A DNA stretch of 64,000 nucleotides from Paeniglutamicibacter quisquiliarum (lineage in GTDB: Bacteria > Actinomycetota > Actinomycetes > Actinomycetales > Micrococcaceae), in the NCBI RefSeq assembly GCF_019084045.1, contig NZ_JAHRED010000006.1, positions 62,001 to 126,000 on the forward strand, given 5' to 3'. This document shows positions 13,415-63,680 of this stretch, piece by piece (the first letter of the stretch is position 1; every line of letters begins with the position of its first letter). Below the pieces are notes generated by a model, which saw nothing but the letters and a program-made list of their open reading frames with translations, was not told where the DNA came from and ran no database searches. A program made the position numbers and the translations under genes.

Positions 13415-13441
13415 TTGAAAGAGGCCCCGACCCACTATCCT
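13415..13441 (+). promoter_or_regulatory. Promoter of the 66-aa gene (leaderless)
   Basis: TTGAAA at 13415-13420, a 15-bp spacer and TATCCT at 13436-13441, which lies six bases before the ATG. Transcription would start at or next to the start codon. Confidence 0.55.
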
Positions 13442-13447
13442 GATGCC

Positions 13448-13648
13448 ATGGAAAAGCTACCTGCAGAATACGAGCACTACCTTGTAGGCAAGGACGAACT
13501 CCACATCGAGACGATCATGCCCATCTTCCGGGAATCGGTCGCCGAGGGTAAATACGGGGTCCACATCCGTGGACTCGGCGGCGTTTCCGAGCAGGCCTTC
13601 GTCGATGAGTCCGTCCCCTTCGGCAAGATCAAGATCACCGTTCCCTAG
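13448..13648 (+). CDS. Conserved-looking 66-aa protein of unknown function
   Basis: I do not recognise this protein. It is soluble and acidic, with no membrane segment, signal peptide or cysteine. The start MEKLPAEYEHYLVGKDEL is highly charged and the end GKIKITVP looks like a short beta strand. It has codon use like its neighbours, a clear -10 six bases upstream of ATG 13448, and a strong terminator 29 bp after its stop, so it is a complete single-gene transcription unit. An open frame extends 46 codons upstream but has no support. It sits between the bkd operon and an MBL hydrolase gene without overlap. Confidence 0.7.
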   Translation: MEKLPAEYEHYLVGKDELHIETIMPIFRESVAEGKYGVHIRGLGGVSEQAFVDESVPFGKIKITVP

Positions 13649-13677
13649 CGCCTGCCCTTCCCTGGCGGTGCGGCACG

Positions 13678-13718
13678 ATTGCCCGGGGACCGGCCTGCGG
13701 TCCCCGGGCAATTGATTT
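13678..13718 (+). terminator. Strong intrinsic terminator
   Basis: ATTGCCCGGGGACC pairs perfectly with GGTCCCCGGGCAAT (14 bp, 7-nt loop) and is followed by TGATTTTG. It closes the 66-aa gene unit. Confidence 0.85.
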
Positions 13719-13799
13719 TGCCCCGGCGCGTTTTCGTGCAGAATGAGCTAAGCGCCGCTACACCGGTGCAGACCGGAACCGAGGAAATGGGATCCCGCC

Positions 13800-14636
13800 A
13801 TGATGCAGCAACTGGTGCCACACGTTGAACAACTTGACGCGCACTGCTGGCGGATGCACCACCAGGGTTTCTCCATGAACTCCGGACTCATCGTGGGCGA
13901 GGAACGGGCCGCGGTCATCGACACCGGCTCCGGACCACGCGAGGCCGCGGGGCTGTACGCCGCAATTCGCCGGATCACCCACCTTCCCCTGCTGGTGGTC
14001 AACACCCACGCCCACGGCGACCACGTCTTTGGAAACAAGTATTTCGCCGCCCACGACGTGGAGGACTTCCACGCCACTGCCGCCGCGGCGGAACACCTGC
14101 GCGGGCACGGGGATGCGGAGCGCCAGTTGGTACGGTTCCTGGAACCGGAAATGGCCCTGCGCCAGGGTCCGTATTCGGGAATCGTCGTCCCCTCCGGGAT
14201 CGTTGCCGACAGCGGTGAGGTCCTCGAACTCGGCGGCGTCAACATGGAGCTCTTTGGCCTGGGGAGCGGGCATACGACCGGGGACCTGCTGGTGCGCTGC
14301 GGCCGGATCCTGTTCACCGGGGACCTGGTCGAGGAAGGCGGCCCGCCAAACTTCGAGGACGCCGACCCCGCTCTTTGGGCCGACCTGCTGGGCAGGCTCG
14401 GGGAGCAATGCGGCCGGGACACGGTGATCGTCCCGGGGCACGGCAACGTGGTGGACGTGGACTTCGTTCGCCGCCAGCACCGGGAAATGCTCGCCGCCAT
14501 CCGGGAGGGGAAGCAAATCGTGGCGTCCTGGCCGGCCGGAAGCTTCGACCCCACCGCCTACCAGTTGGAGCTGTTGCCGTACGGACCTGAACAGTCGACG
14601 ATCTTCCTGCAAAGGCTGAGTGAATTATTGCCATAA
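13800..14636 (+). CDS. MBL-fold metallo-hydrolase
   Basis: A 278-aa metallo-beta-lactamase-fold protein. It keeps the metal-binding THAHGDHVFGN motif near residues 70-80, the His in GSGHTTGD, the Asp in LFTGDLV, and the distal His in VPGHGN. This is the pattern of quinoprotein-relay and glyoxalase-II-like hydrolases. The substrate cannot be told. ATG 13800 is followed directly by a second ATG, and GAGGAAATGGG lies upstream. An MFS transporter gene follows 21 bp later but has its own -10, so the two may be only partly co-transcribed. Confidence 0.85.
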   Translation: MMQQLVPHVEQLDAHCWRMHHQGFSMNSGLIVGEERAAVIDTGSGPREAAGLYAAIRRITHLPLLVVNTHAHGDHVFGNKYFAAHDVEDFHATAAAAEHLRGHGDAERQLVRFLEPEMALRQGPYSGIVVPSGIVADSGEVLELGGVNMELFGLGSGHTTGDLLVRCGRILFTGDLVEEGGPPNFEDADPALWADLLGRLGEQCGRDTVIVPGHGNVVDVDFVRRQHREMLAAIREGKQIVASWPAGSFDPTAYQLELLPYGPEQSTIFLQRLSELLP

Positions 14637-14657
14637 CCGGTTGCGTAGGATGAATGC

Positions 14658-15857
14658 ATGAGTGAGCAACCCTTCAGCCTGCGTCGGATCGCGGTGAAGG
14701 TGTACTCACCCTCCCTGCTCTACGGGCTGGGGCTGGGCGCGGTGACGCCCATCATTGCCCTGTCAGCACTGGACCGCGGGGCCAATCTGGCCACGGCGGC
14801 ATTGATCGTCACCCTGGTCGGCGTCGGCTCGCTGATTTCCAACGTACCGGCCGCCATGCTCACGACGCGATTCGGCGAACGCCTGGCCATGGTCGCGGCC
14901 GCCGCCTGGGCCTCGATGGGCATGGTGCTGGGCATCGTCCCCTCCAACCTGGCGCTCTTTGCGGTGGGCGTCACCATGCTGGGCATGGCCGGCGCCGTCT
15001 TCAACCTGGCCCGCCAGAGCTACCTGGCCGAGGCCGTCCCGCTGGCGTTCAGGGCCAGGGCCATGTCCACCCTGGGCGGGGTCATGCGCATCGGGGTGTT
15101 CATCGGGCCCTTTGCCGCAACCCTGGCCATGACGTGGCTGGGGATCGCCGGTGCCTACTGGGTGGGAATGGCCGCGATGCTGGTTGCGATGATCGTGTGT
15201 TTCCGGATCCCCGACCTGGAATCGCGGGCACCGCTGGAGGCCGGCCAAAGCCGCGCCGGCGGATCCATGTGGAGCATCGCCAAGGACCAGTGGCGGACAC
15301 TGCTGGGGATCGGGCTGGGCATCGTGTGCATTACCGCGGTGCGCTCCACCCGACAGGTCGTGCTTCCCCTGTGGGGAGAGAACATCGGGCTGGACGCCGC
15401 CACCATTTCCCTGGTCTACGGCGTCTCCGGAGCCATTGACATGCTCATCTTCTACCCCGCCGGCAAGGTCATGGACAAGCGCGGACGGGTGTGGGTGGCG
15501 GTGCCGTGCATGGTGGTGATGTCCCTGGCGTTGTTCCTGCTGCCGCTGACCCACAGCGTGCCGAGCATGATGGCGGTGGCCATGGTGTTGGGGTTCGGCA
15601 ACGGCATCGGTTCGGGAATCGTGATGACCCTGGGCGCCGATTATTCGCCGGTGGCGGGCAGGGCCAAGTTCCTGGGGCTTTGGCGATTGATGTCCGACTC
15701 CGGGGCGATGGCTGGGCCGGTGCTGCTTTCGGCGCTCGTGGCCACGGCGACGTTGGGCGCCGGGGTCTGGGCCATCGGCGGGGTGGCACTGCTGGGGGCG
15801 GGGATCTTCGGCTACTTCATTCCGCGGACAAACCGCCGGCGAATGGGAGCCCCGTAA
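14658..15857 (+). CDS. MFS transporter
   Basis: A 399-aa major facilitator protein with about twelve predicted membrane helices and the cytoplasmic loop MLTTRFGERLAMV (motif A position). It is of the drug-efflux-like MFS_1 type; the substrate is unknown. TAGGAT at 14646-14651 lies six bases before the ATG and there is no ribosome binding site, so the mRNA is probably leaderless. The last 46 bases overlap the 3' end of the convergent PAP2 gene. Confidence 0.87.
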   Translation: MSEQPFSLRRIAVKVYSPSLLYGLGLGAVTPIIALSALDRGANLATAALIVTLVGVGSLISNVPAAMLTTRFGERLAMVAAAAWASMGMVLGIVPSNLALFAVGVTMLGMAGAVFNLARQSYLAEAVPLAFRARAMSTLGGVMRIGVFIGPFAATLAMTWLGIAGAYWVGMAAMLVAMIVCFRIPDLESRAPLEAGQSRAGGSMWSIAKDQWRTLLGIGLGIVCITAVRSTRQVVLPLWGENIGLDAATISLVYGVSGAIDMLIFYPAGKVMDKRGRVWVAVPCMVVMSLALFLLPLTHSVPSMMAVAMVLGFGNGIGSGIVMTLGADYSPVAGRAKFLGLWRLMSDSGAMAGPVLLSALVATATLGAGVWAIGGVALLGAGIFGYFIPRTNRRRMGAP

Positions 15858-16741: not shown

Positions 16742-16899
16742 TGCCACTAGGATTTCACAATTTCGCCGTCGCGTGCCCGGAACGTGGGCTTTATCCCACC
16801 GGTTCGCCGGGCATCCAGGGCCTGGACACCGACCGTCCGGAACCGGGGGCCCCGCAGCCGGCGACGCGCCGCGGTGTCGCTGCCGATAGGCTGGAAACC

Positions 16900-17898
16900 A
16901 TGAACCAGCTGCCCGGACTCGACGAACTCATCCATGCCGCGCATGTGGTGACCCTGCCCATGACGGTGCAATTCCGCGGGGTGCGGCACCGCGAGGCGCT
17001 GCTCCTTGAGGGACCGGCCGGCTGGGGCGAGTTCTCGCCCTTCCTGGAGTACGGGGCCCCCGAGGCGGCCTCGTGGCTGCGCTCGGCCATCGAGGCGGCA
17101 TGGGAAGGCTACCCGGATCCGGTCCGCGGCAGTGTTCCGGTCAACGCCACGCTGCCGGCCGTGGGCCCCGAACGCATTGAGGCCGTCCTGGCCTCCTACG
17201 ACGCCACGCACACCATCAAGGTCAAGGTCGCGGAGAAGGGCCAGGACCTCGCCCAGGACGTCGCCCGGGTGGCGGAGGTCCGCCGACTGCTCCCGGACGC
17301 CGCCATCCGCATCGACGCCAACGCCGGATGGACCCACGGCGCGGCAATGGAGGCGCTGGAGGCGCTGGCAGGCTTCTCCCTGCAATACGCGGAGCAGCCC
17401 GTGGCCGGGATCGAGGCCCTGGCCCGGGTGCGCGAAGAGGTGGCCCGCCGCGGGTTGGGGATCCTGATTGCCGCCGATGAATCGGTGCGCAAGGAGTCCG
17501 ACCCGCTGGCGGTGGCCCGCGCGGGCGCCGCCGACCTGATCGTGATCAAGGCCCAGCCGCTGGGCGGGGTGCGCCGGGCCCTGCAGATCGTGCGGGACGC
17601 CGGCCTGCCCGCCGTCGTGTCCTCGGCGCTGGACACCTCTATTGGCCTGCGGCAGGGTGCGGCACTGGCCGCCGCGCTGCCGGAGCTGCCCTACGCCTGC
17701 GGGCTTGCGACAGGCTCGCTCCTGTCCGCGGACGTCACCGCCGACAGGTTCATCGCCGTCGACGGGTCACTGCGGCTCAGGGACATCGCCGCGGACCCGG
17801 AGCTGCTGCGCCGGCACGCGGTCGACGCCGGCCGCCTGGCCTTCTGGCGGCAGCGGCTGGCCGACTGCCACGAACAACTGCGCCGGGCAGGCGCCTGA
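16900..17898 (+). CDS. menC: o-Succinylbenzoate synthase MenC
   Basis: Enolase-superfamily enzyme (332 aa) that dehydrates SHCHC to o-succinylbenzoate in menaquinone biosynthesis. Key residues are seen in IKVKVAEKG (catalytic KxK), RIDANAGW (metal Asp), YAEQP (metal Glu), ADESVR (metal Asp or Glu) and VIKAQPLGG (second catalytic Lys). ATG 16900 is seven bases after TAGGCT, so translation is probably leaderless; the longer upstream frame has no start signal. menD is 2.5 kb downstream and menF, menG and a prenyl synthase lie further on, with unrelated genes in between. Confidence 0.93.
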   Translation: MNQLPGLDELIHAAHVVTLPMTVQFRGVRHREALLLEGPAGWGEFSPFLEYGAPEAASWLRSAIEAAWEGYPDPVRGSVPVNATLPAVGPERIEAVLASYDATHTIKVKVAEKGQDLAQDVARVAEVRRLLPDAAIRIDANAGWTHGAAMEALEALAGFSLQYAEQPVAGIEALARVREEVARRGLGILIAADESVRKESDPLAVARAGAADLIVIKAQPLGGVRRALQIVRDAGLPAVVSSALDTSIGLRQGAALAAALPELPYACGLATGSLLSADVTADRFIAVDGSLRLRDIAADPELLRRHAVDAGRLAFWRQRLADCHEQLRRAGA

Positions 17899-20245: not shown

Positions 20246-20367
20246 TGCCTGCCCGGGGGCCTTTCCGGCTGCGTGCCGTCGGGAACGGCAGGATGTTGGC
20301 CGCCACATCGCCAATTGCCCATGGCGGCGGAACGGTTCTGGTCGGGCACGGAATTAGGATGGAAGGC

Positions 20368-22065
20368 ATGCCAACTGATTCCGTTCCCGAACTCGCCTCC
20401 ATGGATGTTGCCCGCCTCCTGCTGGCCGCACTGCAGACCCACGGGATTCGCGACGTGGTGATCTGCCCCGGATCGCGCAGTGCACCGCTGGCCTACGCCC
20501 TGGCGGAGGCCGAGGCAGCGGGCACCATTCGCCTGCATGTGCGCATCGACGAACGCGGGGCGGGATTCACCGCGCTGGGCCTCAGCCTGGCCGGAGGTGC
20601 CCCGGTGGCCGTGGTGACCACCTCGGGCACCGCGGTGGGGGAGCTGCTGCCGGCGGTCATGGAGGCCAACCACGTCGGGGCCGGGCTGGTGGTGCTCTCG
20701 GCCGACCGCCCCACCGAATTGCACGGCACCGGAGCCAACCAGACCACCAACCAGGTCGACCTGTTCGGGGTGCACGTGCGCCGCAGCGTCAGCATCCCGG
20801 CCGGATCGGATCCGGAACCGCTGGTTGCCAAGGCAATGTCGGCGGTCCGCGGATCGCAGGCATCGGCTCCCGGCCCGGTGCAGGTCAACGTGGCCTTCCG
20901 GGACCCGCTCATCCCCGATCCGGGGGACAGGCTCCCGGATTTCGGGGCCAACATCATTGTCCCACCCGTTGCACTCGAGCCGAATGCGGAGCCGGGGTGG
21001 AAGAACCACATCCCGGTGTCCGAACACCGAACCGTGGTGGTTGCGGGACACGGAGCCGGCCCGGAGGCCGAGGACTTCGCCAGGACCCTGGGACTGCCGC
21101 TTTTTGCGGAGCCAAGTTCCAACGCCCGGTTCGGGCCCAACGCCGTCGGCCCCTACCGCACCCTGCTGGCCAAGCACATGGCACGCATCGAACGCGTGGT
21201 CCTCTTCGGCCGACCGACCCTCAGCCGGCCGGTCGGCATGCTGCTGGGAAACCCGAACATCGACTCGGCCCTCTGGTCTCCGGCACCGGCCCCATGGTTC
21301 GAACCGGGACGCAGACGCGAGCGGATCGTCGCCGATCCCGCCGCACTGGTGGAGTTCGCCGGGGTGGCCCCCGAGGGCTGGCTGGGACAATGGGAGCGCC
21401 TGGGCAAGCGGGCAGAGGAAGCCATCCAGGCATCCATCGCCGCCGGTGCGGGGCTGAACGGACCGGTGGTTGCCCGCGAGGTCTGGGAGTTGTCCCACGG
21501 GAACCTCGTGCTGGGGTCCTCGAACGTCATCCGCGACGCCGACCTCTGCGGACAGCCCGCGAAAAGGGCAGTCGCAAGCGTCTACGCAAACCGGGGCCTG
21601 GCCGGGATCGACGGAACCGTGGCCACCGCCACGGGCATCGCCCAGGCACGTGGCGGGACGAAGACCACGCTCCTGGTCGGGGACGTGACGTTCCTGCACG
21701 ACGTGGGTGGGCTGCTGATCGGTGAGGGCGAGCCCACGCCCGAGATGGATGTGGTGGTCCTCAACGATGCCGGAGGCGCCATCTTCTCCACCCTCGAACA
21801 CGGTGCGGTCGAGGAATCCGGGCGCTACGCAAATGCGGTCGAAAGGCTCTTTGCCACCCCGCACCGGGTGCGGATCCAGGCGCTGGCCGCGGCCTTCGGA
21901 TGGGACTACCTGGCGGTGGACACCGTGGAGGAGCTCAGAAGGGCGCTGCAAACCCCGGGAACCCGGCGCATCATCGAGGTCGCGGTGCCCCGAGCGGGAC
22001 TGCGCGCCATGCATGCCCGGATCGCGGCTCAAGTCAACGAACTTGGCTGGCCGGAAACACGCTAG
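20368..22065 (+). CDS. menD: SEPHCHC synthase MenD
   Basis: ThDP-dependent enzyme (565 aa) joining isochorismate and 2-oxoglutarate, the first committed step of menaquinone synthesis. The N-terminal domain has VVICPGSRSAPLAYAL and RIDERGAGFTALGL (catalytic Glu), then VTTSGTAVGELLPAVMEA. The C-terminal ThDP motif is GDVTFLHDVGGLL followed by VVLNDAGGAIF. ATG 20368 (MPTDSVPEL) is chosen because TAGGAT lies seven bases upstream; the extra 41 in-frame codons before it would overlap the promoter. It is the menC partner in the pathway but a separate transcription unit. Confidence 0.95.
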   Translation: MPTDSVPELASMDVARLLLAALQTHGIRDVVICPGSRSAPLAYALAEAEAAGTIRLHVRIDERGAGFTALGLSLAGGAPVAVVTTSGTAVGELLPAVMEANHVGAGLVVLSADRPTELHGTGANQTTNQVDLFGVHVRRSVSIPAGSDPEPLVAKAMSAVRGSQASAPGPVQVNVAFRDPLIPDPGDRLPDFGANIIVPPVALEPNAEPGWKNHIPVSEHRTVVVAGHGAGPEAEDFARTLGLPLFAEPSSNARFGPNAVGPYRTLLAKHMARIERVVLFGRPTLSRPVGMLLGNPNIDSALWSPAPAPWFEPGRRRERIVADPAALVEFAGVAPEGWLGQWERLGKRAEEAIQASIAAGAGLNGPVVAREVWELSHGNLVLGSSNVIRDADLCGQPAKRAVASVYANRGLAGIDGTVATATGIAQARGGTKTTLLVGDVTFLHDVGGLLIGEGEPTPEMDVVVLNDAGGAIFSTLEHGAVEESGRYANAVERLFATPHRVRIQALAAAFGWDYLAVDTVEELRRALQTPGTRRIIEVAVPRAGLRAMHARIAAQVNELGWPETR

Positions 22066-32851: not shown

Positions 32852-32969
32852 GGTCTGCCAAGCTTACCGCCGGAAAACGGCCGCCATGGAGGCGCAGTGG
32901 CGCCGCTCACCCGCGTTCCCGGGAACGGGACGTTTTCCCCTAGCCCCGGAACTTTGCGACAATGAAAAG

Positions 32970-33668
32970 GTGAGCCGTGCATCGCTGGAAAAGCGCCCCG
33001 AAGAAGTCCAAGCCATGTTTGATGATGTTGCCCCGCGTTATGACGTGATGAACGACATCCTGTCCATGGGCCAGACCCGCCGATGGCGAAAGATCGTTGT
33101 CGATGCGGTGGGTGCCAAGCGCGGCCAGCGGGTCCTTGATCTGGCCGCCGGAACCGGCACCTCCTCGGAACCGTACGCGGATGCCGGCATCGGCGTTGTC
33201 GCGTGCGATTTCTCCCAGGGCATGCTCAAGGTCGGCAAGCGCCGCCGACCCGACATCGACTTCGTCGCCGGGGACGCCACCAACCTCCCCTTTGCCGATG
33301 ACAGCTTCGATGCCTCCACGATCAGCTTTGGCCTGCGCAACGTCAACGAGCCGAAGAAGGCGCTGGCGGAGATGCTGCGCGTCACCAAGCCGGGCGGAAC
33401 CCTGGTCATCGCCGAGTTCTCCCACCCGACCTTTGCCCCGTTCCGCACCGTGTACACCGAGTACCTGATGCGCGCCCTTCCTCCGGTGGCCAAGAAGATC
33501 TCCTCGAACCCCACCGCCTATGTCTACCTGGCCGAGTCCATTCGCGCCTGGCCGGCGCAGGACGGGCTGGCCTCGTGGATCGAGGACGCGGGCTGGGAAT
33601 CATGCCGCTACCGCAACCTTTCCGGCGGCATCGTGGCGGTGCACCGGGCCACCAAGCCCCTGGCCTAG
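32970..33668 (+). CDS. menG: Demethylmenaquinone methyltransferase MenG (UbiE family)
   Basis: SAM-dependent C-methyltransferase (232 aa) for the last step of menaquinone synthesis. It has SAM motif [48 protein letters not shown], and the UbiE C-terminal block [17 protein letters not shown] 32970 lies six bases after GACAAT and gives the normal length; the 69 codons upstream in frame cross the promoter. No geranylgeranyl-reductase-type gene (menaquinone side-chain reductase) lies between it and the prenyl synthase gene. Confidence 0.93.
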
Positions 33669-35496: not shown

Positions 35497-35931
35497 TTAG
35501 TTGTTCAGTTCGGGGGATAGTTCGTCAAAAACCCAGCTGAACATGTCCAGGACGTATTCGCTGAAGGTTCCTTCTTCGCTCTTCCAGATGCCGCGGGCGT
35601 TCTGGCGGCGGTACACAATCGGGTCGGGGACCTCGAGCTGGTCCACGCGGATGCCCCACACGTACTTTTCCTCTTCGTCCTCCAGGAACAGGAGATAGCC
35701 GTCCTCGACCTCCAGCTCGTCGGGATCGAAGAAGTAATGGTACGCCTCCATCAGGTCCTCGCAGCCGCCCAATGCCAGATAGAACTCTCGCAGCACCAGC
35801 GGGATGGGGGAGGGGACCAGGGACAGGGCGTCGTCGAGCTCGGACTCGGTCAACCCGTCCTCAACCTGCCACTCGTCCTCAAGGTACAACGGAACCAGCG
35901 AACGGAACTTCTCAAGGAACATTTCAGCCAT
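35497..35931 (-). CDS. SMI1/KNR4 (SUKH)-like small acidic protein
   Basis: A 144-aa acidic protein that resembles the SUKH superfamily. It has IPLVLREFYLALGG near residues 40-55, then DGYLLFLEDEEEKYVWGI, then PDPIVYRR, and FSEYVLDMFSWV at the C-terminus. SUKH proteins are often immunity partners of secreted toxins, but no toxin gene is next to it. It lies just upstream of the HIT gene on the same strand. ATG 35931 is chosen because TAGAAT lies seven bases upstream; the ATG three codons earlier sits inside that -10. The function is unknown. Confidence 0.6.
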   Translation of the reverse strand: MAEMFLEKFRSLVPLYLEDEWQVEDGLTESELDDALSLVPSPIPLVLREFYLALGGCEDLMEAYHYFFDPDELEVEDGYLLFLEDEEEKYVWGIRVDQLEVPDPIVYRRQNARGIWKSEEGTFSEYVLDMFSWVFDELSPELNN

Positions 35932-35956
35932 GTCACCCATTCTATCGGGCGGGGTG

Positions 35957-37363
35957 CTAGTTCAAGTCCATGGCCGTGAGCGCGAGCCACAATTGCACGC
36001 GGTCGGCCGTTTTCGTCGGGTCGTAGCCGGAGAGCTCGCTGATCTGCTGCAGCCGGTAGCGGACGGTATTGCGGTGCAATCCCAGGGCATCGGCCACGGC
36101 CCCGACGCTCCCGTCGAGTTCCAGGTAGCTGCGCAATGTGCCCAACAACTCGGCAGAGTGCTTCTTGTCAAAGGCCTGCAGCGGTTCCAGGGCCTCCTGC
36201 GCCAGGGCATGCAGCGGCACGTCGCGGGCCGCGAGCAGCAGGGAAGTCAGCGAGAGCTTGGAGGGGGTGTTCAGCCGTTCGCCGTGGCGCAGCGCCTCGA
36301 TGGCCTCGAAGAAACTCCAGCGCAGGCCGTTGGGCTGGGTGTAGCCGCCGCCGAAACCGACGCGCGCCCCGATGCCCGCCCCCTGCAGGTACTTGTCGAT
36401 CCCGTCGGCCAGTGGCGCTCCGTCGTGCAGCGCCACGACCAGCGCGAGCCTGTCATCGACGATGGCCGAGACCGCGTAATCGAATTCCGGCGGGACGGGC
36501 AGGGTGCGCAGGGCCTTTTCCTGGCCCGGAGCCGCTGCCACCAACACGACCGAGTGCGGCTGGCTGGGTGCCACGCCGATTCCCTGCAGCCTGGCGTTGG
36601 CCTCGGAGCCCGTGAGCGTTCCTGCCAGGAGGTCCGAGAACGCCTGCCCTGCGACCAGCCGCGTGGATTCGCGCAGCCGCGACTGGTTGGCCAGTTCCAG
36701 CCCGATCAGGCCCTGGGCGTAGTCCACGAGGCCGTCGTGCCCGTAGGGCTCGGCCAGGTGCAGGGTGCACTTGTCCCGCAGTCCGGTGGCGATGGGCACC
36801 TCGTGCCACGAGTCCTCACCCAGTTCCGGCCCGTGGATCCGCGCGGCGAACTGGGTCAGCGCCACCGCGGTCCCCAGCATGCGGGAGAGCTCGTGCAGCA
36901 TGGCCCGCAGGCCGCCGGTGAGCAGCGTGGAGGCCAGCTGCTGGTGGCCCTTGAGCAGCTGCTCGAGCCGCTGCAGGTGGTCGGCGTTCAGCGCATCGGC
37001 AATGAGCTTGGTGATGGCCATGAACGGTGTTTCGTAGGGAACCTCGAAGACCGGCAGGCCCAGCTCGGTCGCCTCGCGGATCACGGCGGCGGGCACGGAG
37101 CGGTGGCTCAGCCCGGTCCCGTACCCCAGGGCCAGGACGCCGGCCGCGTGAACCGTCCGAACAAACGACTCCTGGTTGGCGATCGTGGTCTGCCGCAGGC
37201 CCGTGGTGAGCACTATGGCCCCGGTGGTGAGGAAGGGGGAAGGGTCGCGCAGTTCGGTGACGGCCGCCCATTCGATGGGGGTCTCACCCACGGCGGAAAA
37301 GTCCGTGTGCGCCTTGAGCCCGAGGCTCTTGGACTCTAGAAGTTTCAACAGGGTGATGGCCAT
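35957..37363 (-). CDS. PucR-family transcriptional regulator, GabR-like
   Basis: A 468-aa regulator. It has an N-terminal PucR sensory domain (EWAAVTELRDPSPFLTTGAIVLTTG), a central GGDEF-like region, and a C-terminal PucR helix-turn-helix (VGAVADALGLHRNTVRYRLQQI). It diverges from the NSS transporter gene, and gabT lies beyond that. A PucR-type protein, GabR, controls GABA use in Corynebacterium glutamicum, so the same role is likely here. The start ATG is six bases after TAGTAT on the minus strand, so the mRNA should be leaderless. Confidence 0.85.
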   Translation of the reverse strand: MAITLLKLLESKSLGLKAHTDFSAVGETPIEWAAVTELRDPSPFLTTGAIVLTTGLRQTTIANQESFVRTVHAAGVLALGYGTGLSHRSVPAAVIREATELGLPVFEVPYETPFMAITKLIADALNADHLQRLEQLLKGHQQLASTLLTGGLRAMLHELSRMLGTAVALTQFAARIHGPELGEDSWHEVPIATGLRDKCTLHLAEPYGHDGLVDYAQGLIGLELANQSRLRESTRLVAGQAFSDLLAGTLTGSEANARLQGIGVAPSQPHSVVLVAAAPGQEKALRTLPVPPEFDYAVSAIVDDRLALVVALHDGAPLADGIDKYLQGAGIGARVGFGGGYTQPNGLRWSFFEAIEALRHGERLNTPSKLSLTSLLLAARDVPLHALAQEALEPLQAFDKKHSAELLGTLRSYLELDGSVGAVADALGLHRNTVRYRLQQISELSGYDPTKTADRVQLWLALTAMDLN

Positions 37364-37475
37364 GCACCAATACTATGAAAGTTTTTGTGCATTCGTACGA
37401 CAGAAGGCGGCGGCAGCGGGAGATAAAGCGCGCGGTGACCTGTGGCCACGCTCACCAGTGGGTTAACGTAGGTGC

Positions 37476-43754: not shown

Positions 43755-45251
43755 TTAGGCCTTGCCGGCCATTTCGGCGGCGCCATCGGTCGAGCCCGCA
43801 ACGCCGGCCGCGTAGGCCTCGCGCAGGATCGCGCCGAGGTTCGCATCAACGTTGGTCCAGTACTGGAAGAAGCCTTCGCGGATGGACTCGATGCTGATGC
43901 CCTGGCACTGGCCCAGCAGGGTCGCGTGGAAGCGTTCCTTGGCAGCTGCATCGTAGACCTCGCGGTACAGGGTGCCTGCCTGGCCGAAGTCGTCGTCCTC
44001 CGAGCGCAGGGTCTGCGCGGCGCGAACCATCTCGCCGTCGGTCTCCCAGCCGCCCTCGCCGGCACGTTCCGGCTGTGCCGCCGGGCCGCCGAAGGAGTTC
44101 GGGGTGTAGACGCGGGCGTCTGCGTCGTTGAAGTGGTACTGCATGGAGCCCTCATGCATGTAGTTGTTCACCTTGGCCGCGTGCGGCTGGTTGACCGGCA
44201 ACTGGTTGTAGTTGGTGCCGATGCGGTTGCGCTGGGCGTCCGGGTAGGAGAACACGCGCGCCATCAGCATCTTGTCGGGGCTGATGTCGATGCCCGGGAC
44301 CAGGTTAGAGGGCGAGAATGCCGCCTGCTCGATCTCGGCGAAGAAGTTGCGCGGGTTGCGGTTCAGCGTGAAGTGGCCAACCGGGATCAGCGGGTAGTCC
44401 GCGTGCGGCCAGACCTTGGTCATGTCGAACGGGTTGAAGCGGTAGGTCTTGCCCTCTTCGTACGGCATGATCTGGACCTTGACGTCCCAGGTCGGGAAGT
44501 TGCCGGCCTCGATGTTGTCGAACAGGTCGCGGCGGTAGAAGTCGGCGTCGGAGCCCGCAAGCTTCTCGGCCTCTTCGTTGGACATGTTGTGCACGCCCTG
44601 GCGGGAAATGAAGTGGTACTGCACCCAGAACCGCTCGCCCTCGGCGTTGATCCACTGGTAGGTGTGCGAGCCGTAGCCGTTCATTTCGCGCCAGGAGGTC
44701 GGCAGGCCGCGGTCGCCCATCAGGTACGTCACCTGGTGTGCGGACTCGGGGGAGTGGGTCCAGAAGTCCCACTGCATGTCGGCATCGCGCAGGCCGGAGG
44801 CGCCCAGGCGCTTCTGCGAGTGGATGAAGTCGGGGAACTTAAGCCCATCGCGGATGAAGAACACCGGGGTGTTGTTGCCCACGACGTCGTAGTTGCCCTC
44901 GGTGGTGTAGAAGCGAAGTGCGAACCCGCGCACGTCGCGCCAGGTGTCCGGGGAGCCCTGCTCGCCGGCCACGGAGGAGAAGCGCAGCAGCGTCTCGGAC
45001 TTGGCGCCCGGCTGGAAGACGGCCGCGCGGGTGTACTTCGAGACGTCCTCGGTGACGGTGAATTCACCGAAGGCCCCGCCGCCCTTGGCGTGCGGGTTGC
45101 GCTCCGGCACGCGCTCGCGGTTGAACGCGGCAAGCTTCTCGACGAGGTAGCGGTCGTGGAGGGCGGTGATGCCGTCCGGGCCGGAGGTCAGCGAATGGGC
45201 ATCGCTGGCAACCGGGGCGCCGCTCTGGGTGGTGGTGAAGTTCTCGCTCAA
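43755..45251 (-). CDS. katA: Monofunctional haem catalase KatA
   Basis: Cytoplasmic catalase breaking down hydrogen peroxide (about 498 aa). The catalytic His is in [12 protein letters not shown], the catalytic Asn in [12 protein letters not shown], and the haem-ligand Tyr in [19 protein letters not shown] at 45251 is chosen as start because AAGGAG sits six bases before it and gives the usual MSENFTTT terminus. The ATG at 45269, six codons upstream, has no ribosome binding site and would place the AAGGAG inside the gene. The Fur/PerR gene is 58 bp upstream on the same strand, so furA-katA is probably one peroxide-controlled unit. Confidence 0.94.
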
Positions 45252-45308
45252 GAGATTCTCCTTCTTCATGTGGGTTGGTAACTCTTCTGCCGGATTTCCG
45301 ACGGGCGG

Positions 45309-45728
45309 CTAGGCCGCGCCGGTTTTCCTGCAGTTTTCACAGAAGCCCTGGTAAAGGACATCGGCAATCTGGATTTCCATGCCGTGGCTGTCCGACGGGG
45401 TCAGGCAGGGGGCGTGGCCCACCGCGCATTCCACATCTTCGATCCTGCCGCAGCTGGTGCAAATGGCGTGATGGTGGTTGTCGTTGACGCGGGTCTCATA
45501 GAGGGCCGCGGAGTGCGGGGGAGTGAACCGTCGCAACATGCCTTGTTCCGTCAGATCATTAAGCACGTTGTAGACGGACTGGATGGAAACATCCGGCAAC
45601 GCCCGGTGGACCGCGGTGACAACTCTCTCCGCCGAGGAGTGCGGATGGTGCTCCAGGGCCTCGAGCACGGCAAGGCGGCCGCGGGTGACCCGCAGTCCAA
45701 GTTCCCGCATCCGTGCCGAATAGTCCAT
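45309..45728 (-). CDS. Fur-family repressor (FurA/PerR/CatR-like)
   Basis: Metal-dependent regulator of 139 aa. It has a winged HTH (VTRGRLAVLEALEHHPHSSAERV, SIQSVYNVLNDLTEQGML), a regulatory metal site NDNHHHAICTSCG, and a C-terminal structural zinc pair CENC. Its place just upstream of katA is that of peroxide-sensing FurA/CatR proteins. Start M4 (45728) is favoured: TTGACA, a 17-bp spacer and TGGAAT end seven bases before it, whereas the first ATG lies inside the -10. The operator at 45746-45770 should mediate autoregulation and katA control. Confidence 0.9.
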   Translation of the reverse strand: MDYSARMRELGLRVTRGRLAVLEALEHHPHSSAERVVTAVHRALPDVSIQSVYNVLNDLTEQGMLRRFTPPHSAALYETRVNDNHHHAICTSCGRIEDVECAVGHAPCLTPSDSHGMEIQIADVLYQGFCENCRKTGAA

Positions 45729-45745
45729 GTGATCCATTCCACCGT

Positions 45746-45770
45746 CTTATTTTGAATCTGTCAAGATAAG
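45746..45770 (-). promoter_or_regulatory. FurA-type operator over the fur-katA promoter
   Basis: Read on the minus strand: CTTATCTTG, seven bases, CAAAATAAG (arms match at 8 of 9 positions). It contains the -35 TTGACA of the fur promoter. The same gap also serves the divergent MFS gene at 45809. Confidence 0.7.
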
Positions 45771-45808
45771 GGTCGGCGTGTTGCGGCCGCTGTCGCTAGA
45801 CTCGATCC

Positions 45809-47089
45809 GTGGCCCGACTCCTTGCCGACCTGACCCCCTTGCGCGAAAGCCCCGCCTTCAAGAGGCTGTGGATCGGCAATGCCCTCTCGGCTGTCGGCGG
45901 ACAACTCACCCTCGTGGCGGTCAGCCTCGAGGTCTACGCCCTGACGGGCTCCAGCCTCTACGTCGGCCTGCTGGGCGCCTTCGCGCTGGTGCCGCTGGTG
46001 CTGACGGGCCTGTACGGCGGTTCCATCGCCGATGCCCATGACCGCCGCAAGGTCGCGCTGGCCTCGGCGCTGGTGCTGTGGGCCGCCACGGCCGCCATTG
46101 CTGCCCAGGCCTGGCTGGGCGTGGACAACGTCTGGGTGCTCTATGGGCTGGTGGCCGTCCACTCCGCGGCCGGCGGCATCAACCAGCCCACCCGGGGGGC
46201 CATCATCCCGGCCATCGTCGGGCTCAAGGCCCTGCCGGCGGCCAACTCGCTGAACATGGTCACCTTCGGCATCGCCCAGATGGTCGGGCCGTTGCTCGGC
46301 GGGCTGCTGGTTGCCCAAATCGGGTTCGGCTGGACCTACTCCATCGATGTGCTGACCTATGGCGCCGCCGTGTGGTCCGTCTACAAGCTGCCCTCGCTGC
46401 CGCCTGAGGGAACGCCGGCGAAGGCCGGGCTGCGGTCGGTCATCGAGGGGTTCAGGTTCCTGGGCACCCAGCCCAATGTCCGCATGACCTTCCTGATCGA
46501 CCTGGCGGCCATGGTCCTGGCCGCACCCCGGGCGCTGCTTCCCGCCATCGGGGCCGTGCTGATCGGCGGTGGCGAGCTGACCATGGGCGTCCTCCTGGCG
46601 GCGACGGCCATGGGTGCCTTCCTGGCGGGACTGTTCTCCGGGCCCGTGGGACGGATCCACCGCCACGGCGTGGCGGTGTTCATCTGCGTCTGTGCCTGGG
46701 GAGCGAGCATCGGCCTCTTCGGTGCCTTCGTCATCCTGGCCGCCCGCAGCCCGGTTCCGCCCGACGGCACCGCCGGTGCCTGGATCTGGCCGGCCGCGGC
46801 ATGCATGGCGTTGGCCGGCGTTGCCGACGCCGTTTCCTCGGTCTTCCGCACCACCATCCTGCAAACCGCCACCCCGGATCACCTGCGCGGGCGCCTGCAG
46901 GGGGTTTTCATCGTGGTGGTCGCCGGCGGGCCGCGGCTGGGGGAAATGCTCTCCGGTTCCGTCGCCGGCGGCATCGGCGAAGGCTGGACGCTACTTCTCG
47001 GCGGGATTGCGTGCATTGCGGCCGCCGCCGCACTGATGCGCTGGGAGCCCGGGTTCCTGCGCTACGACGCGCGGGAACCGAAGCCCTGA
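45809..47089 (+). CDS. MFS transporter (MFS_3/EntS-like)
   Basis: A 426-aa MFS protein. The N-terminus RESPAFKRLWIGNALSAVGGQLTLVAVSLEVYALTGSSLYVGLLG and the loop GGSIADAHDRRKVALASALVL are typical of the MFS_3 group, which includes enterobactin exporters and macrolide efflux pumps. The substrate is unknown. GTG 45809 lies six bases after TAGACT, suggesting a leaderless mRNA. It diverges from the fur gene across 80 bp, so the Fur-type operator might affect it too, but it has its own -10. Confidence 0.88.
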   Translation: MARLLADLTPLRESPAFKRLWIGNALSAVGGQLTLVAVSLEVYALTGSSLYVGLLGAFALVPLVLTGLYGGSIADAHDRRKVALASALVLWAATAAIAAQAWLGVDNVWVLYGLVAVHSAAGGINQPTRGAIIPAIVGLKALPAANSLNMVTFGIAQMVGPLLGGLLVAQIGFGWTYSIDVLTYGAAVWSVYKLPSLPPEGTPAKAGLRSVIEGFRFLGTQPNVRMTFLIDLAAMVLAAPRALLPAIGAVLIGGGELTMGVLLAATAMGAFLAGLFSGPVGRIHRHGVAVFICVCAWGASIGLFGAFVILAARSPVPPDGTAGAWIWPAAACMALAGVADAVSSVFRTTILQTATPDHLRGRLQGVFIVVVAGGPRLGEMLSGSVAGGIGEGWTLLLGGIACIAAAAALMRWEPGFLRYDAREPKP

Positions 47090-49461: not shown

Positions 49462-49466
49462 GGACC

Positions 49467-52193: not shown

Positions 52194-52543
52194 ATCCGAG
52201 TTGGCAGCCGACCCGCATCCGTCTCTACGCGGTCCGGGTCAGGATGCATCCTTCCTGTTATCCGTGGCGCCCGCTGTTTCCTCTGGAAACCGGGCCTGGC
52301 TGGCGAACCGGATGGGACCACAAGACCCGCGCTTCGCCCGATGCTTTGGTGGATGGCTGCCTCCTTGGTCGGCTGTGGCATTTCCTTGAGCATACGGAGG
52401 CGTGCGCATGGATGGGGGCTGCCGGAATAGATTGTGGATAACTTGTTGCCCGTGGTCGTGACGGGGAGGTGAAAACGGCGTGGGGAAGCCGAAATCCGAG
52501 TGCCGACTGCGGCGACTCCTGCTTCACGCGGTACCGTTGGTAT
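52194..52543. other. Gap upstream of thioredoxin
   Basis: About 350 bp. Overlapping frames occur on both strands, but none is recognisable or has start signals. The last bases hold the thioredoxin -10, TACCGT (52532-52537). Confidence 0.5.
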
Positions 52544-52915
52544 ATGGCTACTATCAATATCACCGAGTCTGAGTTCACGACGACGTTGGAAGAAAACGAC
52601 ATTGTCTTCGTGGATTTTTGGGCGGCGTGGTGCGGACCCTGCCGCCAATTCGCCCCGGTCTATGACGACATTTCCGAGAAGTACCCCGATGTGAAATTCG
52701 CCAAGGTGGACACCGAGGCCGAACAGGGCCTGGCACGCGCCGCGAACATCACCTCAATCCCGACGCTGATGGCCTTCCGCGACAAGGTGCTGGTCTTCTC
52801 GCAGCCCGGCGCGATGAACGCCTCGCAGCTCGATGACCTGGTTGTGGCCGTCAAGGGCATCGACATGCAGCAGGTGCACGCACAGATCGCCGAGCAAGAG
52901 GCCCAGGCCCAGTAG
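52544..52915 (+). CDS. trxA: Thioredoxin
   Basis: Cytoplasmic thiol-disulfide reductant of 123 aa. The active site WCGPC is at residues 29-33 in FWAAWCGPCRQFAPVYDD, with the cis-Pro region at ITSIPTLMAF. The C-terminus has a 15-residue Gln/Glu/Ala-rich tail beyond the usual fold. ATG 52544 lies six bases after TACCGT and has no ribosome binding site, so the mRNA is probably leaderless. The in-frame extension upstream is not supported. Confidence 0.93.
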   Translation: MATINITESEFTTTLEENDIVFVDFWAAWCGPCRQFAPVYDDISEKYPDVKFAKVDTEAEQGLARAANITSIPTLMAFRDKVLVFSQPGAMNASQLDDLVVAVKGIDMQQVHAQIAEQEAQAQ

Positions 52916-53925: not shown

Positions 53926-54021
53926 GCATCCATACTCTCATCGGCACCGGCCCTTCCAGCGCATGAAGAATCACTACGAACGGCGTCGGGAATGTGACGG
54001 GGCGCCGGTAGAGTGAGCGCC

Positions 54022-55398
54022 ATGAAGTATGCGCGCACAGTCCTGGACCTGATTGGGAACACCCCGCTGGTCAAGCTCAATTCGGTCACCGCCGGCATCG
54101 AGGCAACCATCCTCGTCAAGCTGGAATACCTGAACCCCGGCGGGTCCATCAAGGACCGGATCGCCCTGAAAATGGTGGAAAACGCAGAGGCCGACGGGAA
54201 GCTGCTTCCGGGCGGCACCATCGTTGAGCCCACCAGCGGCAACACCGGGGTGGGACTGGCCATGGTCGGCCAGCTCAAGGGCTACAAGACCATCTTCGTG
54301 ACCCCGGACAAGGTCGGGGAGGAAAAGCGCGACGTGCTGCGCGCCTATGGCGCCGAGGTGGTGGTGACCCCCACCGCGGTGGCACCCGATTCCCCCGAGT
54401 CCTATTACGGCGTTTCGGACCGCCTGGTGCGCGAGATCCCCGGGGCGTACAAGCCCGACCAGTTCTCCAACCCCGCGGCCCCGGAGAGCCACTACGAGTC
54501 CACGGGTCCGGAAATCTGGAACGACACCGACGGCACGCTGACCCATGTGGTCATCAGCGCCGGCACCGGCGGCACCATCACCGGCACCGGGCGCTACCTC
54601 AAGGAAATCTCCGCCGACCGCTCCTCCGGCCCGGTCAAGGTCATCAGCGTCGACCCGGACGGCTCGGTCTACTCCGGCGGCACGGGCCGCCCCTACTTCG
54701 TCGAGGGCGTCGGCGAGGACATGTGGCCGGGCAACTACGACCCGGCGGTCCCCGACGAGGTCATCGCCGTGACCGACGCGGACGCATTCGCGATGACCCG
54801 CCGCCTGGCCAAGGAGGAGGGCCTGCTGGTCGGGGGTTCCTCCGGCATGGCGGTGGTCGCGGCCCTGCAGGCGGCCAAGGACCTTCCGGCAGAGGCAGTG
54901 GTCGTGGTGATCCTGCCCGACGGCGGGCGCGGCTACCTGGGCAAGATCTTCAACGACTCCTGGATGCGCTCCTACGGCTTCCTGCGCGACGACTCGGCGG
55001 ACACCGTGGGACAGCTGCTCGCGGCCAAGCCGAAGGACCTGCCGGACCTGGTCCACACGCACCTGAAGGAGACCGTCCGCGACGCCATCGGCGTGATGAA
55101 CGAGTACGGCGTCTCGGCCCTGCCGGTGCTCTCCGCCGAGCCCCCGGTCCGCCTCGGCGAGGTGCGCGGCTACATCGACGAGCGCACGCTGACCGAAAAG
55201 CTCTTCCGCAACGAGATCGCCCTGACCGACCCGGTGGGCCCGCTGGTGACCACCGCGCTGCCGCTGATCGGCATCCACGAAACCATCGACCGCGCCAAGG
55301 AACGGCTCTCGGAGCACGACGCCCTGCTGGTCACCGACGACGGGGCCGCGGTCGGGGTCATCACCCGCCACGACCTGCTGACCTACCTCACCCACTAA
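54022..55398 (+). CDS. cbs: Cystathionine beta-synthase
   Basis: PLP enzyme (458 aa) condensing serine with homocysteine to cystathionine. The PLP Lys is K44 in NPGGSIKDRIA, the phosphate-binding loop is SAGTGGTITGTGRYL, and the substrate loop is PTSGNTGVGLAM. Two C-terminal CBS domains (from about residue 340) distinguish it from cysteine synthase; no haem-binding N-terminus is present. ATG 54022 is seven bases after TAGAGT, so the mRNA may be leaderless. The cystathionine lyase gene follows 18 bp later, making a reverse transsulfuration pair. Confidence 0.93.
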   Translation: MKYARTVLDLIGNTPLVKLNSVTAGIEATILVKLEYLNPGGSIKDRIALKMVENAEADGKLLPGGTIVEPTSGNTGVGLAMVGQLKGYKTIFVTPDKVGEEKRDVLRAYGAEVVVTPTAVAPDSPESYYGVSDRLVREIPGAYKPDQFSNPAAPESHYESTGPEIWNDTDGTLTHVVISAGTGGTITGTGRYLKEISADRSSGPVKVISVDPDGSVYSGGTGRPYFVEGVGEDMWPGNYDPAVPDEVIAVTDADAFAMTRRLAKEEGLLVGGSSGMAVVAALQAAKDLPAEAVVVVILPDGGRGYLGKIFNDSWMRSYGFLRDDSADTVGQLLAAKPKDLPDLVHTHLKETVRDAIGVMNEYGVSALPVLSAEPPVRLGEVRGYIDERTLTEKLFRNEIALTDPVGPLVTTALPLIGIHETIDRAKERLSEHDALLVTDDGAAVGVITRHDLLTYLTH

Positions 55399-58343: not shown

Positions 58344-58466
58344 TCGGCGGCCACGGGATTGTTTTCAGGCTTCTCCATGCACCGCAGGTTACCGGAAGAA
58401 CGCCGCAGTGCGGATTCCGTGGCGCGCCCGGGGTGGTTCTGCACCTTGCCTTATAGGATTTATTCC

Positions 58467-59156
58467 ATGAGTATTTCCCCCGAACCCGGCCGCCCCGAAA
58501 CAGTGCCTGTCGCCACCGGCACCCTGGAGGCGGTCTGCGTTGTCCATGCGCTGAAGCCGGATGCCGGCCCCGTGGGCACCACCGCAATAGACAAGCGGCC
58601 GATCGACGGCCCGGTCAAGGTCCGCAAGATGGGGCTGTACGCGGATGTGCAGGTGGACCGGGAACACCACGGCGGCCACGACCAGGCCGTCTACGCGTAC
58701 TCGCAAGCCGAGGCCGGTCGCTGGGGCGGGGAACTGGGCAGGGAGATTCAGGCCGGCCTGTTCGGGGAGAACCTGCGGGTCTCCGGGATCGACACCACTG
58801 ACGCGGTCGTGGGGGAGCGCTGGGCCATCGGCAAGTCGGTGGTCCTGGAGGTCACCTGCCCGCGGATTCCCTGTTCGACCTTTGCCCGGCACCTGGGGGA
58901 GGAGAACTGGGTGCGCCGCTTCACCGAACGCGGGGATGTGGGCTGTTTCCTGAAGGTGGTCCGGACCGGGAAGATCGGTGCCGGTGAGCCGATCGCGGTG
59001 ATCTCGCGGCCCGAACACGGGGTGCGGGTGCGCGATATCTTTGTGGGGCCCACCCCTGAACAGGCCGAACGGTTGCTGGAATACCAACACGCCAGCGGAC
59101 GCCCGCTGCCGGCCAAGGTCCTGCGCACGCTTCCGGAGCCCGAAGCGGGGCAGTGA
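58467..59156 (+). CDS. MOSC domain protein (YiiM-like)
   Basis: A 229-aa MOSC protein. DREHHGGHDQAVYAYSQAE, LFGENLRVSGID and the conserved cysteine region TCPRIPCSTFARHLG match the YiiM group, which reduces N-hydroxylated compounds using a Mo cofactor in studied members. ATG 58467 is seven bases after TAGGAT with no ribosome binding site, so a leaderless start is likely; the 36 upstream in-frame codons are rejected. It is a stand-alone gene. Confidence 0.88.
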   Translation: MSISPEPGRPETVPVATGTLEAVCVVHALKPDAGPVGTTAIDKRPIDGPVKVRKMGLYADVQVDREHHGGHDQAVYAYSQAEAGRWGGELGREIQAGLFGENLRVSGIDTTDAVVGERWAIGKSVVLEVTCPRIPCSTFARHLGEENWVRRFTERGDVGCFLKVVRTGKIGAGEPIAVISRPEHGVRVRDIFVGPTPEQAERLLEYQHASGRPLPAKVLRTLPEPEAGQ

Positions 59157-61499: not shown

Positions 61500-61516
61500 G
61501 CACTAAATAAACAACG

Positions 61517-62406: not shown

Positions 62407-62446
62407 TTCACAGCGTCGAAAAATGCTGGTAGAGTTCTTACTCGTT
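62407..62446 (+). promoter_or_regulatory. tRNA-Thr promoter (first copy)
   Basis: TTCACA (62407-62412), a 17-bp spacer, TAGAGT (62430-62435), then TCTTA and CTCGTT (62441-62446), which touches the tRNA. The precursor leader would be only a few bases. Confidence 0.75.
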
Positions 62447-62518
62447 GCCCCCCTAGCTCAGTGGTAGAGCGCGTTCTTGGTAAGAACGAGGTCACCGGAT
62501 CGATTCCGGTGGGGGGCT
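62447..62518 (+). tRNA. tRNA-Thr (GGT), copy 1
   Basis: Cloverleaf: acceptor GCCCCCC/GGGGGGC, D-stem GCTC/GAGC, anticodon stem CGTTC/GAACG with loop TTGGTAA (anticodon GGT), T-arm ACCGG/CCGGT. CCA is not encoded. It is identical to the copy at 63906-63977. Confidence 0.95.
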
Positions 62519-62531
62519 CTGAATGGAATGG

Positions 62532-62580
62532 CCCGCGTCTTAGTCAGCTCGAAAGAGAATCGGACGCGGACGCGGGTTTT
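62532..62580 (+). terminator. Hairpin between tRNA-Thr and tRNA-Met
   Basis: CCCGCGTC (62532-62539) pairs with GACGCGGG (62569-62576) across a long loop and is followed by TTTT. It may end or process the tRNA-Thr transcript only 9 bp before tRNA-Met. Confidence 0.55.
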
Positions 62581-62589
62581 ACCATTCGT

Positions 62590-62663
62590 GGCGGCTTAGC
62601 TCAGCTGGTTAGAGCGCACGACTCATAATCGTGAGGTCCCGGGATCGAGTCCCGGAGCCGCTA
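62590..62663 (+). tRNA. tRNA-Met (CAT)
   Basis: Acceptor GGCGGCT/AGCCGCT (first pair G-T), D-stem GCTC/GAGC, anticodon stem CACGA/TCGTG with loop CTCATAA (anticodon CAT), T-arm CCCGG/CCGGG. It lacks the three consecutive G-C pairs of the initiator anticodon stem, so it is an elongator Met tRNA, or a tRNA-Ile2 if lysidinylated. Confidence 0.92.
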
Positions 62664-62670
62664 CAGATTG

Positions 62671-62704
62671 ATCCCCGTCTTCCTTGTGAGGGCGGGGATT
62701 TTTT
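62671..62704 (+). terminator. tRNA-Met terminator
   Basis: ATCCCCG pairs with CGGGGAT, extended by TC/GG near the loop, then TTTTTG. Confidence 0.85.
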
Positions 62705-62969
62705 GTGTCCCCGGGAGTAGGAATCCCGAGCTTGGCTTAGGGGCCCAATTAAGCGTGTCCGCCCCGGGTGAGCCAGGGGTGCCCGGTTGCCCCATCATGC
62801 CGTGTTTAAGCAGGACCTGTCGGCCGAACCCGGAAATCCGTGGGGATCCGGGAGGTTGGACGGAGCGATCTGCGGAACCGGTGACGGGCGAAACCTGTAT
62901 TCGGCCGTGAATCCGCTGGGAAAAGCACTTGGCAGGGCCCGGCTCGGCGGTCGGTGCGCCCCGATGCCA
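62705..62969. other. Gap between tRNA-Met and dedA
   Basis: About 265 bp of GC-rich sequence; I see no gene or clear repeat in it. Confidence 0.5.
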
Positions 62970-62981
62970 TAGGGTGGTGCG

Positions 62982-63680
62982 GTGATTCCAATAGCAAACA
63001 TGCAGGCAACGCTTGCCGCGGTCGTGGTGAGGCCCCCATCAGCCAGTTTTCTGCCGGATTGGCTGAATCCCGATGTCTTCCTGCGCGACCCGGCGCTGGG
63101 CCCATGGGTCATCCTGCTCATTTGCGGCATCGTGTTTGCCGAGACCGGGCTGTTGGTCGGATTCTTCCTTCCCGGGGATTCCATGCTCTTTACTGCCGGG
63201 TTGTTGGTCGCCACAGGTGCCCTGGACGTCAGCCTGCCGCTGTTCACTGCGCTGATATTTGTTTCGGCCTTCGTCGGTGACCAGACCGGATACCTCATCG
63301 GGCGCAAGGCGGGGCCCCCGATCTTCAACAAGCCGGATTCACGCTTCTTTCGCCAGGAATACGTGGAGAAGGCCCACGCGTTCTTTGAGCGCTTCGGCGG
63401 GAGGGCCGTGGTGCTTGCCCGTTTCGTTCCCATCGTCAGGACGTTTGTTCCCGTCATCGCCGGGGTCGCGCACATGCAGTACCGGGTCTTCGTGTTCTAC
63501 AACCTGCTGGGTGCCCTGCTGTGGGGCGTGGGGGTGACACTGCTGGGCTTCTGGCTGGGCCAGTATGAGTGGGTCGGGAACAACATTGACCTGATCTTCA
63601 TCGCGATCGTGCTTCTGTCTGTCATACCGATCGGCATCGAAATATTCATGGCCGGACGTCGCAGGAAGACTGCCGGCTAG
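62982..63680 (+). CDS. DedA-family (SNARE-associated) membrane protein
   Basis: A 232-aa polytopic membrane protein of the DedA/VTT family, some members of which recycle undecaprenyl phosphate or other lipid carriers. FAETGLLVGFFLPGDSMLFTAG, VGDQTGYLIGRKAG, the FERFGGRAVVLARFVPIVRTFVPVIAG block with its conserved arginines and GVTLLGFWLG are all present. It starts at GTG 62982, six bases after TAGGGT, with no ribosome binding site, so it is probably leaderless. It lies between two identical tRNA-Thr genes. Confidence 0.92.
   Translation: MIPIANMQATLAAVVVRPPSASFLPDWLNPDVFLRDPALGPWVILLICGIVFAETGLLVGFFLPGDSMLFTAGLLVATGALDVSLPLFTALIFVSAFVGDQTGYLIGRKAGPPIFNKPDSRFFRQEYVEKAHAFFERFGGRAVVLARFVPIVRTFVPVIAGVAHMQYRVFVFYNLLGALLWGVGVTLLGFWLGQYEWVGNNIDLIFIAIVLLSVIPIGIEIFMAGRRRKTAG

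Follow-up and report, generated by a model that had tools for sequence, protein, structure and literature searches.

Messenger RNAs that begin directly with their start codon are a known class in the Actinobacteria (PMC3160421, PMC3898074, PMC4633059), as the first-pass annotation of the DNA described here had noted. Zheng et al. (2011) reported that TA-led genes average 19.2% (2.3-29.8%) in 86 of 89 actinobacterial genomes (PMC3160421), and for mycobacteria an RTG codon at +1 is described as necessary and sufficient, with C as the preferred base at -1 (PMC4633059). Here, we analyzed a stretch of 64,000 nucleotides from Paeniglutamicibacter quisquiliarum (assembly GCF_019084045.1, contig NZ_JAHRED010000006.1, positions 62,001 to 126,000), called the window below, in which fourteen genes start with ATG or GTG six or seven bases behind a hexamer resembling a -10 element. 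We take these genes to be leaderless with a probability of about 0.93, and the window is a well-supported further example of a habit already known from Actinobacteria.

In the portions of the published accounts available to us, the closest counterparts are the TA-led genes, which likewise carry a TANNNT whose first T lies about 12 bases ahead of the start, occur in high-GC genomes, and come first in transcription units (PMC3160421). Against their average, the share found here is 119 of 801 genes, or about 13% after removal of chance matches. We also separate a six-base and a seven-base class, unlike that study, whose available text names neither Arthrobacter nor the present genus (PMC3160421). 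Mycobacterium tuberculosis and M. smegmatis share with our strain the TANNNT -10 element, a weak or missing -35 element, the use of both ATG and GTG, and the lack of enrichment at TTG, whereas the transcription starts and N-termini predicted here were measured there (PMC3898074, PMC4633059). A -10 motif described for Deinococcus-Thermus also places TANNNT about 6-7 bases before the open reading frame (ORF), is kept in relatives, and has been used for start-codon correction; it differs in belonging to another phylum and in that its promoter function was demonstrated by mutation (PMC12340547). We found no literature joining "leaderless" with "Paeniglutamicibacter", and of five papers combining leaderless, Arthrobacter, and transcription start site, none names Arthrobacter in its title.

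TANNNT at six and seven bases before start codons

When the sequence was re-read, all fourteen sites proposed in the first-pass annotation were present as written, agreeing in coordinate, strand, hexamer, and spacing. The -10-like hexamer is followed by six bases and then ATG or GTG at eight sites (13448, 14658, 32970, 37363, 37476, 45809, 52544, and 62982) and by seven bases at six sites (16900, 20368, 35931, 45728, 54022, and 58467). The claim of a fixed TAnnnT proved slightly too strong: it holds for 12 of the 14 hexamers, the exceptions being GACAAT before menG and TGGAAT before fur.

For an unbiased count, genes were called by a dicodon score using a home-made gene caller trained on 284 ORFs, and TANNNT was counted at every distance before all in-frame ATG and GTG codons near the gene starts; the candidate starts were not chosen by the motif. 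The caller is weak in low-GC stretches (called coding: 16% in L009 and L022, 39% in L023, 49% in L010), and the counts omit most of the genes located there. In the window, which contains 53 called genes, 12 of 146 in-frame candidates showed TANNNT at six (7) or seven (5) bases, no other distance between 0 and 25 exceeded four matches, and 121 out-of-frame candidates gave none at six and one at seven bases. The match at 18122 is probably due to chance; an ATG in the same frame lies upstream at 18095 and is preceded by GGAG. Absent from the 12 matches are menC, which lay outside the scanned range with a caller start at 16741, and fur, which was not called.

The sample of the remaining genome comprised 60 stretches outside the window with a total of 1.13 Mb, about a quarter of the 4.44-Mb genome, and yielded 801 genes with a score above 30 (935 were called in all, including the window). 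Among the 1,960 in-frame candidates of this set, 66 had TANNNT six bases and 54 had it seven bases before the start codon, as opposed to 5 at five and 2 at eight bases. In 100 dinucleotide shuffles, the means were 7.4 and 7.1 with maxima of 15 and 14, and 1,603 out-of-frame candidates gave 6 and 4 matches. The comparison with shuffled sequence put forward in the first-pass annotation thus came out strongly positive over about a quarter of the genome. The enrichment is limited to ATG (48 at six, 38 at seven bases) and GTG (18 and 16), as only 1 and 2 of 424 TTG candidates carried the motif at these distances. The 120 matches fall into 119 of the 801 genes, and this proportion does not differ significantly from the 12 of 53 genes in the window (Fisher p = 0.16), which means that the window is not special. 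Six other genomes from the same family and order showed peaks at the same two distances (53 at six and 41 at seven bases among 2,115 candidates), while a control set of 47 annotated Escherichia coli K-12 starts had no TANNNT at six bases and one at seven.

Conservation was followed in orthologues from 39 relatives and 80 named loci, which were aligned on the start codon. Rows below 60% identity, repeated 70-base surroundings, and copies from the window's own genome were dropped, leaving 251 distinct orthologues, 224 of which belong to the 12 TANNNT genes; these rows are interrelated, some genomes being near-identical, and do not count as independent. TANNNT was present in 194 of the 224, at six bases in 112 and at seven in 82, and both distances occurred among the orthologues of 8 of the 12 genes. 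In the hexamer columns not fixed by the filter, identity was 92, 85, and 96%, compared to 34-84% over 40 upstream columns, and across relatives the hexamer and its distance are kept while the flanks change. In L233-L235, the gene of a 66-amino-acid protein starts three codons further upstream and retains the six-base distance, and in menG and fur the position is kept even where the hexamer deviates. TANNNT also recurred at one other distance in 12 of 13 fur rows, 9 of 13 rows of the SUKH-like gene, and 6 of 13 rows of the PucR-type regulator gene.

Proposed leaderless initiation and alternative explanations

The median energy of the duplex with the anti-Shine-Dalgarno sequence was -3.3 at the 120 TANNNT starts and -3.2 inside genes, but -5.8 at 663 other starts. 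That the genes lack a ribosome binding site, as claimed in the first-pass annotation, is therefore correct for the class but not for every gene, as 5 of the 14 window genes are borderline, with weak Shine-Dalgarno-like stretches that reach -6 or lower (menD -7.8, the gene at 62982 -7.3, menC -6.5, fur -6.5, and cbs -6.2). In their position, the TANNNT genes match genes that open a transcription unit. Only 4 of 113 follow a same-strand neighbor by 10 bases or less, compared to 143 of 627 other genes, and a divergent arrangement is commoner (50 of 113 vs. 192 of 627). The motif is accompanied by an extended -10 element (TGN) in 7 of the 120 cases. We propose that the hexamer represents the -10 element of a housekeeping promoter, placed in such a way that RNA polymerase would start exactly where the ATG or GTG begins. 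The resulting mRNA would have neither a 5' leader nor a Shine-Dalgarno sequence, and the ribosome would initiate on the 5'-terminal AUG or GUG. By analogy with mycobacteria, where others have mapped these events, transcription would begin exactly on the start codon and the leaderless mRNA would be translated.

The two distances differ in the base at -1. In the window's own genome, this base is a pyrimidine in 48 of the 54 starts of the seven-base class but in 46 of the 66 of the six-base class (Fisher p = 0.014), with background values of 1,146 of 1,960 for all candidates and 119 of 185 for those with TANNNT at other distances. Because the difference was first seen in this set, the six other genomes serve as the independent test, and they gave 37 of 41 vs. 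33 of 53 (p = 0.002); the combined counts, which include the first set, are 85 of 95 vs. 79 of 119 (p = 8e-5). The orthologues, whose rows are not independent, show pyrimidines in 92 of 95 and 89 of 122 cases, respectively. We read the bias as a likely sign that selection favors initiation precisely at the start codon, and on balance we lean towards the view that the two distances are set by a start-site choice at single-base resolution, seven bases being tolerated only with a pyrimidine at -1 that is skipped by RNA polymerase. Six and seven bases would then be two settings of one rule. A purine seven bases past the hexamer would be used as the start, and in the six-base class this is the A or G that opens the start codon. 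A pyrimidine at this position, which in the seven-base class is the base at -1, would cause the next base to be used, once more the A or G of the start codon. If this is true, selection would disfavor even a one-base leader throughout this order, and both the demand for initiation exactly on the start codon and the exact 5' end, predicted by the -1 base, could be read from sequence alone; whether a one-base leader harms translation would also become directly testable. As a refinement, the dependence of the -1 base on the distance may be new; we did not meet it in the literature on leaderless genes, in a search that was not exhaustive.

It is also conceivable, but in our estimation unlikely, that transcription starts one to five bases before the start codon, at least in the seven-base class, and leaves a tiny leader. 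If the distance between hexamer and start site is fixed at seven bases, as general promoter geometry suggests, a one-base leader would result in that class. Starts up to five bases away were, furthermore, counted as leaderless by Cortes et al. (PMC3898074). On the other side, the would-be leader base is a pyrimidine in the 85 of 95 seven-base starts mentioned above, and this is a poor start base because 85% of the transcription starts of M. tuberculosis are purines (PMC3898074).

Even less probable is that the hexamer is a disguised Shine-Dalgarno sequence of ordinary leadered genes, TAGGAT containing AGGA at a suitable distance. G is indeed the commonest base at the third hexamer position (35 of 66 six-base and 30 of 54 seven-base starts), and the five window genes with duplexes of -6 or lower fit this explanation as well, although we read their pairing as arising partly from the resemblance of TAGGNT to AGGA. 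We rejected this mimicry on the grounds that pairing over the class is no better than inside genes, that many hexamers have no GG (TATCCT, TAACGT, TAGACT, TACCGT, TAGTAT), and that the spacing is restricted to six or seven bases; moreover, the T, A, and T of the hexamer are kept in orthologues. The least credible proposal is that the peak is produced by the choice of candidates, as TAG or TAA in a six-base hexamer forms an in-frame stop at -12 and would inflate the count before the first start after a stop. Such a stop is present in 45 of the 66 six-base matches, but other in-frame distances (0, 3, 9, 12, 15, 18, 21, and 24) gave 2-9 matches, which shows that the in-frame stop does not make the peak, and none of the 54 seven-base matches has a stop at -12. 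The artefact is refuted by these two controls.

Several observations weigh against leaderless initiation or limit its extent. Apart from the Shine-Dalgarno-like pairing of the five window genes, about 14 of the 120 matches are expected by chance, and one of the six other genomes (G025) has 5 matches at eight bases beside 6 and 6 at six and seven. The caller, which places starts poorly, chose the leaderless start in only 55 of 120 cases. An upstream gene on the same strand lies within 50 bases in 16 of 113 TANNNT genes. The -35 region is weak or absent, with at least four of six matches to TTGACA in 25 of 120 cases and in 318 of 2,400 shuffled sequences, a slight excess. Finally, TANNNT is missing at six or seven bases in 30 of the 224 orthologues, namely 28 cbs and 2 SNF rows; the 28 cbs rows all have 61-68% identity, and most come from outside the family. 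Several cbs rows from Mycobacterium, Mycolicibacterium, Rhodococcus, Gordonia, and Williamsia loci carry GA-NN-AT at about the same place, as read by eye.

Individual genes and disputed start codons

Pfam domains were found in 12 of the 14 proteins, all except the 66-amino-acid and the SUKH-like protein. The coordinates given for each promoter element run from the hexamer to the start codon, and an element is counted as kept in an orthologue where TANNNT lies six or seven bases before the start. On the forward strand, the gene of the 66-amino-acid protein (13448-13648) starts with TATCCT, six bases, and ATG (13436-13450), with TANNNT at six bases in 12 of 12 distinct orthologues, and the gene of an MFS transporter (14658-15857) has TAGGAT, six bases, and ATG (14646-14660), kept in 15 of 15. 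Two further forward genes carry TAGGAT, seven bases, and ATG, namely menD (20368-22065; element 20355-20370), which codes for a thiamine-diphosphate enzyme and has kept the element in 11 of 11 orthologues, and the gene of a MOSC-domain protein (58467-59156; element 58454-58469), which has kept it in 3 of 3 at 60% identity or more. A VTT-domain membrane protein is encoded at 62982-63680 on the same strand behind TAGGGT, six bases, and GTG (62970-62984; kept in 3 of 3). On the reverse strand, a PucR-type regulator gene (37363-35957) has TAGTAT, six bases, and ATG (37361-37375; 13 of 13). It is divergent from the forward gene of an SNF-family symporter (37476-39056) with TAACGT, six bases, and ATG (37464-37478), which is kept in 14 of 16 orthologues (12 with six, 2 with seven bases). 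A search of the symporter gene against phage gave no match, which has no bearing on the leaderless question.

At several genes, the leaderless start competes with another in-frame codon. Among the seven-base starts, an in-frame NTG lies three codons upstream, inside the promoter, as ATG, GTG, or TTG in 9 of 54 cases and as CTG in 7; these are start codons in this genus that automatic annotation may misplace. The rule had been said to fix the starts of fur, the SUKH-like gene, trxA, and cbs, and comparison of orthologues supports it for all of these, weakly in the case of fur. The cbs gene (54022-55398, forward strand), coding for a pyridoxal-phosphate enzyme with a CBS domain, has TAGAGT, seven bases, and ATG (54009-54024), kept in 46 of 74 orthologues (7 six, 39 seven). 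An in-frame GTG at 54013 overlaps its hexamer, but a start-capable codon at -9 is present in only 9 of the 46, which makes this GTG unlikely as a start. The named records nearest by cbs identity were Arthrobacter sp. C2 (94%), Paeniglutamicibacter psychrophenolicus (93%), and P. terrestris (92%). Two records titled Vibrio cholerae and Sporosarcina beigongshangi (L059 and L074) contain cbs genes 72 and 69% identical to that of the window and like those of Arthrobacter records; they are probably mislabelled or contaminated assemblies.

The SUKH-like gene (35931-35497, reverse strand), named so in the first-pass annotation, has TAGAAT, seven bases, and ATG (35929-35944), kept in 13 of 13 orthologues (4 six, 9 seven), and four of these orthologues have no ATG at -9. 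One orthologue outside these counts (L136, 57% identity) has TAGGAT far upstream and AGGGAGA before the ATG, perhaps a switch from leaderless to leadered. For trxA (52544-52915, forward strand; thioredoxin), with TACCGT, six bases, and ATG (52532-52546) kept in 38 of 38 orthologues (31 six, 7 seven), 21 of the orthologues have a stop that closes off the upstream alternative. Orthologues likewise support the start of menC (16900-17898, forward strand), a name taken from the first-pass annotation for a protein with enolase-like domains. Its TAGGCT, seven bases, and ATG (16887-16902) are kept in 12 of 12 orthologues (3 six, 9 seven), and in 10 of these a stop closes off the sole upstream alternative, a TTG at -159. 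In menD, an in-frame ATG at 20359 sits inside the hexamer and is kept in 11 of 11 orthologues; conservation can therefore not separate 20359 from 20368, and the choice rests on the promoter alone.

Genes with deviating hexamers and further observations

The Fur-family gene (45728-45309, reverse strand) has TGGAAT, seven bases, and ATG (45726-45741), and all 13 orthologues have TG[GA]AAT at the seven-base distance. A -35 element TTGACA (45759-45764, reverse strand) lies 17 bases upstream of the hexamer, and TTGAC is found in all 13. One of the 13 has no alternative ATG at -9, which weakly suggests the leaderless start. Divergent from fur is the forward gene of an MFS protein (45809-47089) with TAGACT, six bases, and GTG (45797-45811), kept in 14 of 14 orthologues (13 six, 1 seven). 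Between the two genes (45728-45809, both strands), an inverted-repeat-like sequence, CTTATCTTGACA...TTCAAAATAAG, spans the -35 element of fur and is for the most part conserved in the 13 orthologues. Because a catalase gene (43755-45269) is located just downstream of fur, the repeat may be a Fur/PerR operator controlling this catalase gene.

The menG gene (32970-33668, forward strand), coding for a UbiE methyltransferase, has GACAAT, six bases, and GTG (32958-32972). Of its 14 orthologues, 13 have [GA]ACAAT at the six-base distance, three of these with ATG in place of GTG. In the preceding region (32920-32970), GTTTTC and AACTTTGC[GA]ACAATG are largely kept in 13 orthologues from the same genus, and this conservation may point to an operator or to another sigma factor. 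A candidate operator, judged by its recurrence, was also noted between the PucR-type regulator and SNF symporter genes (37363-37476, both strands), where GTACGAATGCACAAA or close variants precede the -10 element of the regulator gene in most same-genus orthologues.

Two stretches from the same genome, L009 and L022 (contigs C2 and C1), combine their low share of called coding sequence with a low GC content (0.54 and 0.58) and are possibly acquired DNA. Scans of the window with Rfam and for tRNAs yielded four tRNA genes only, among them two tRNA-Thr genes (62447-62519 and 63906-63978), which both have the anticodon GGT and lie about 1.4 kb apart.

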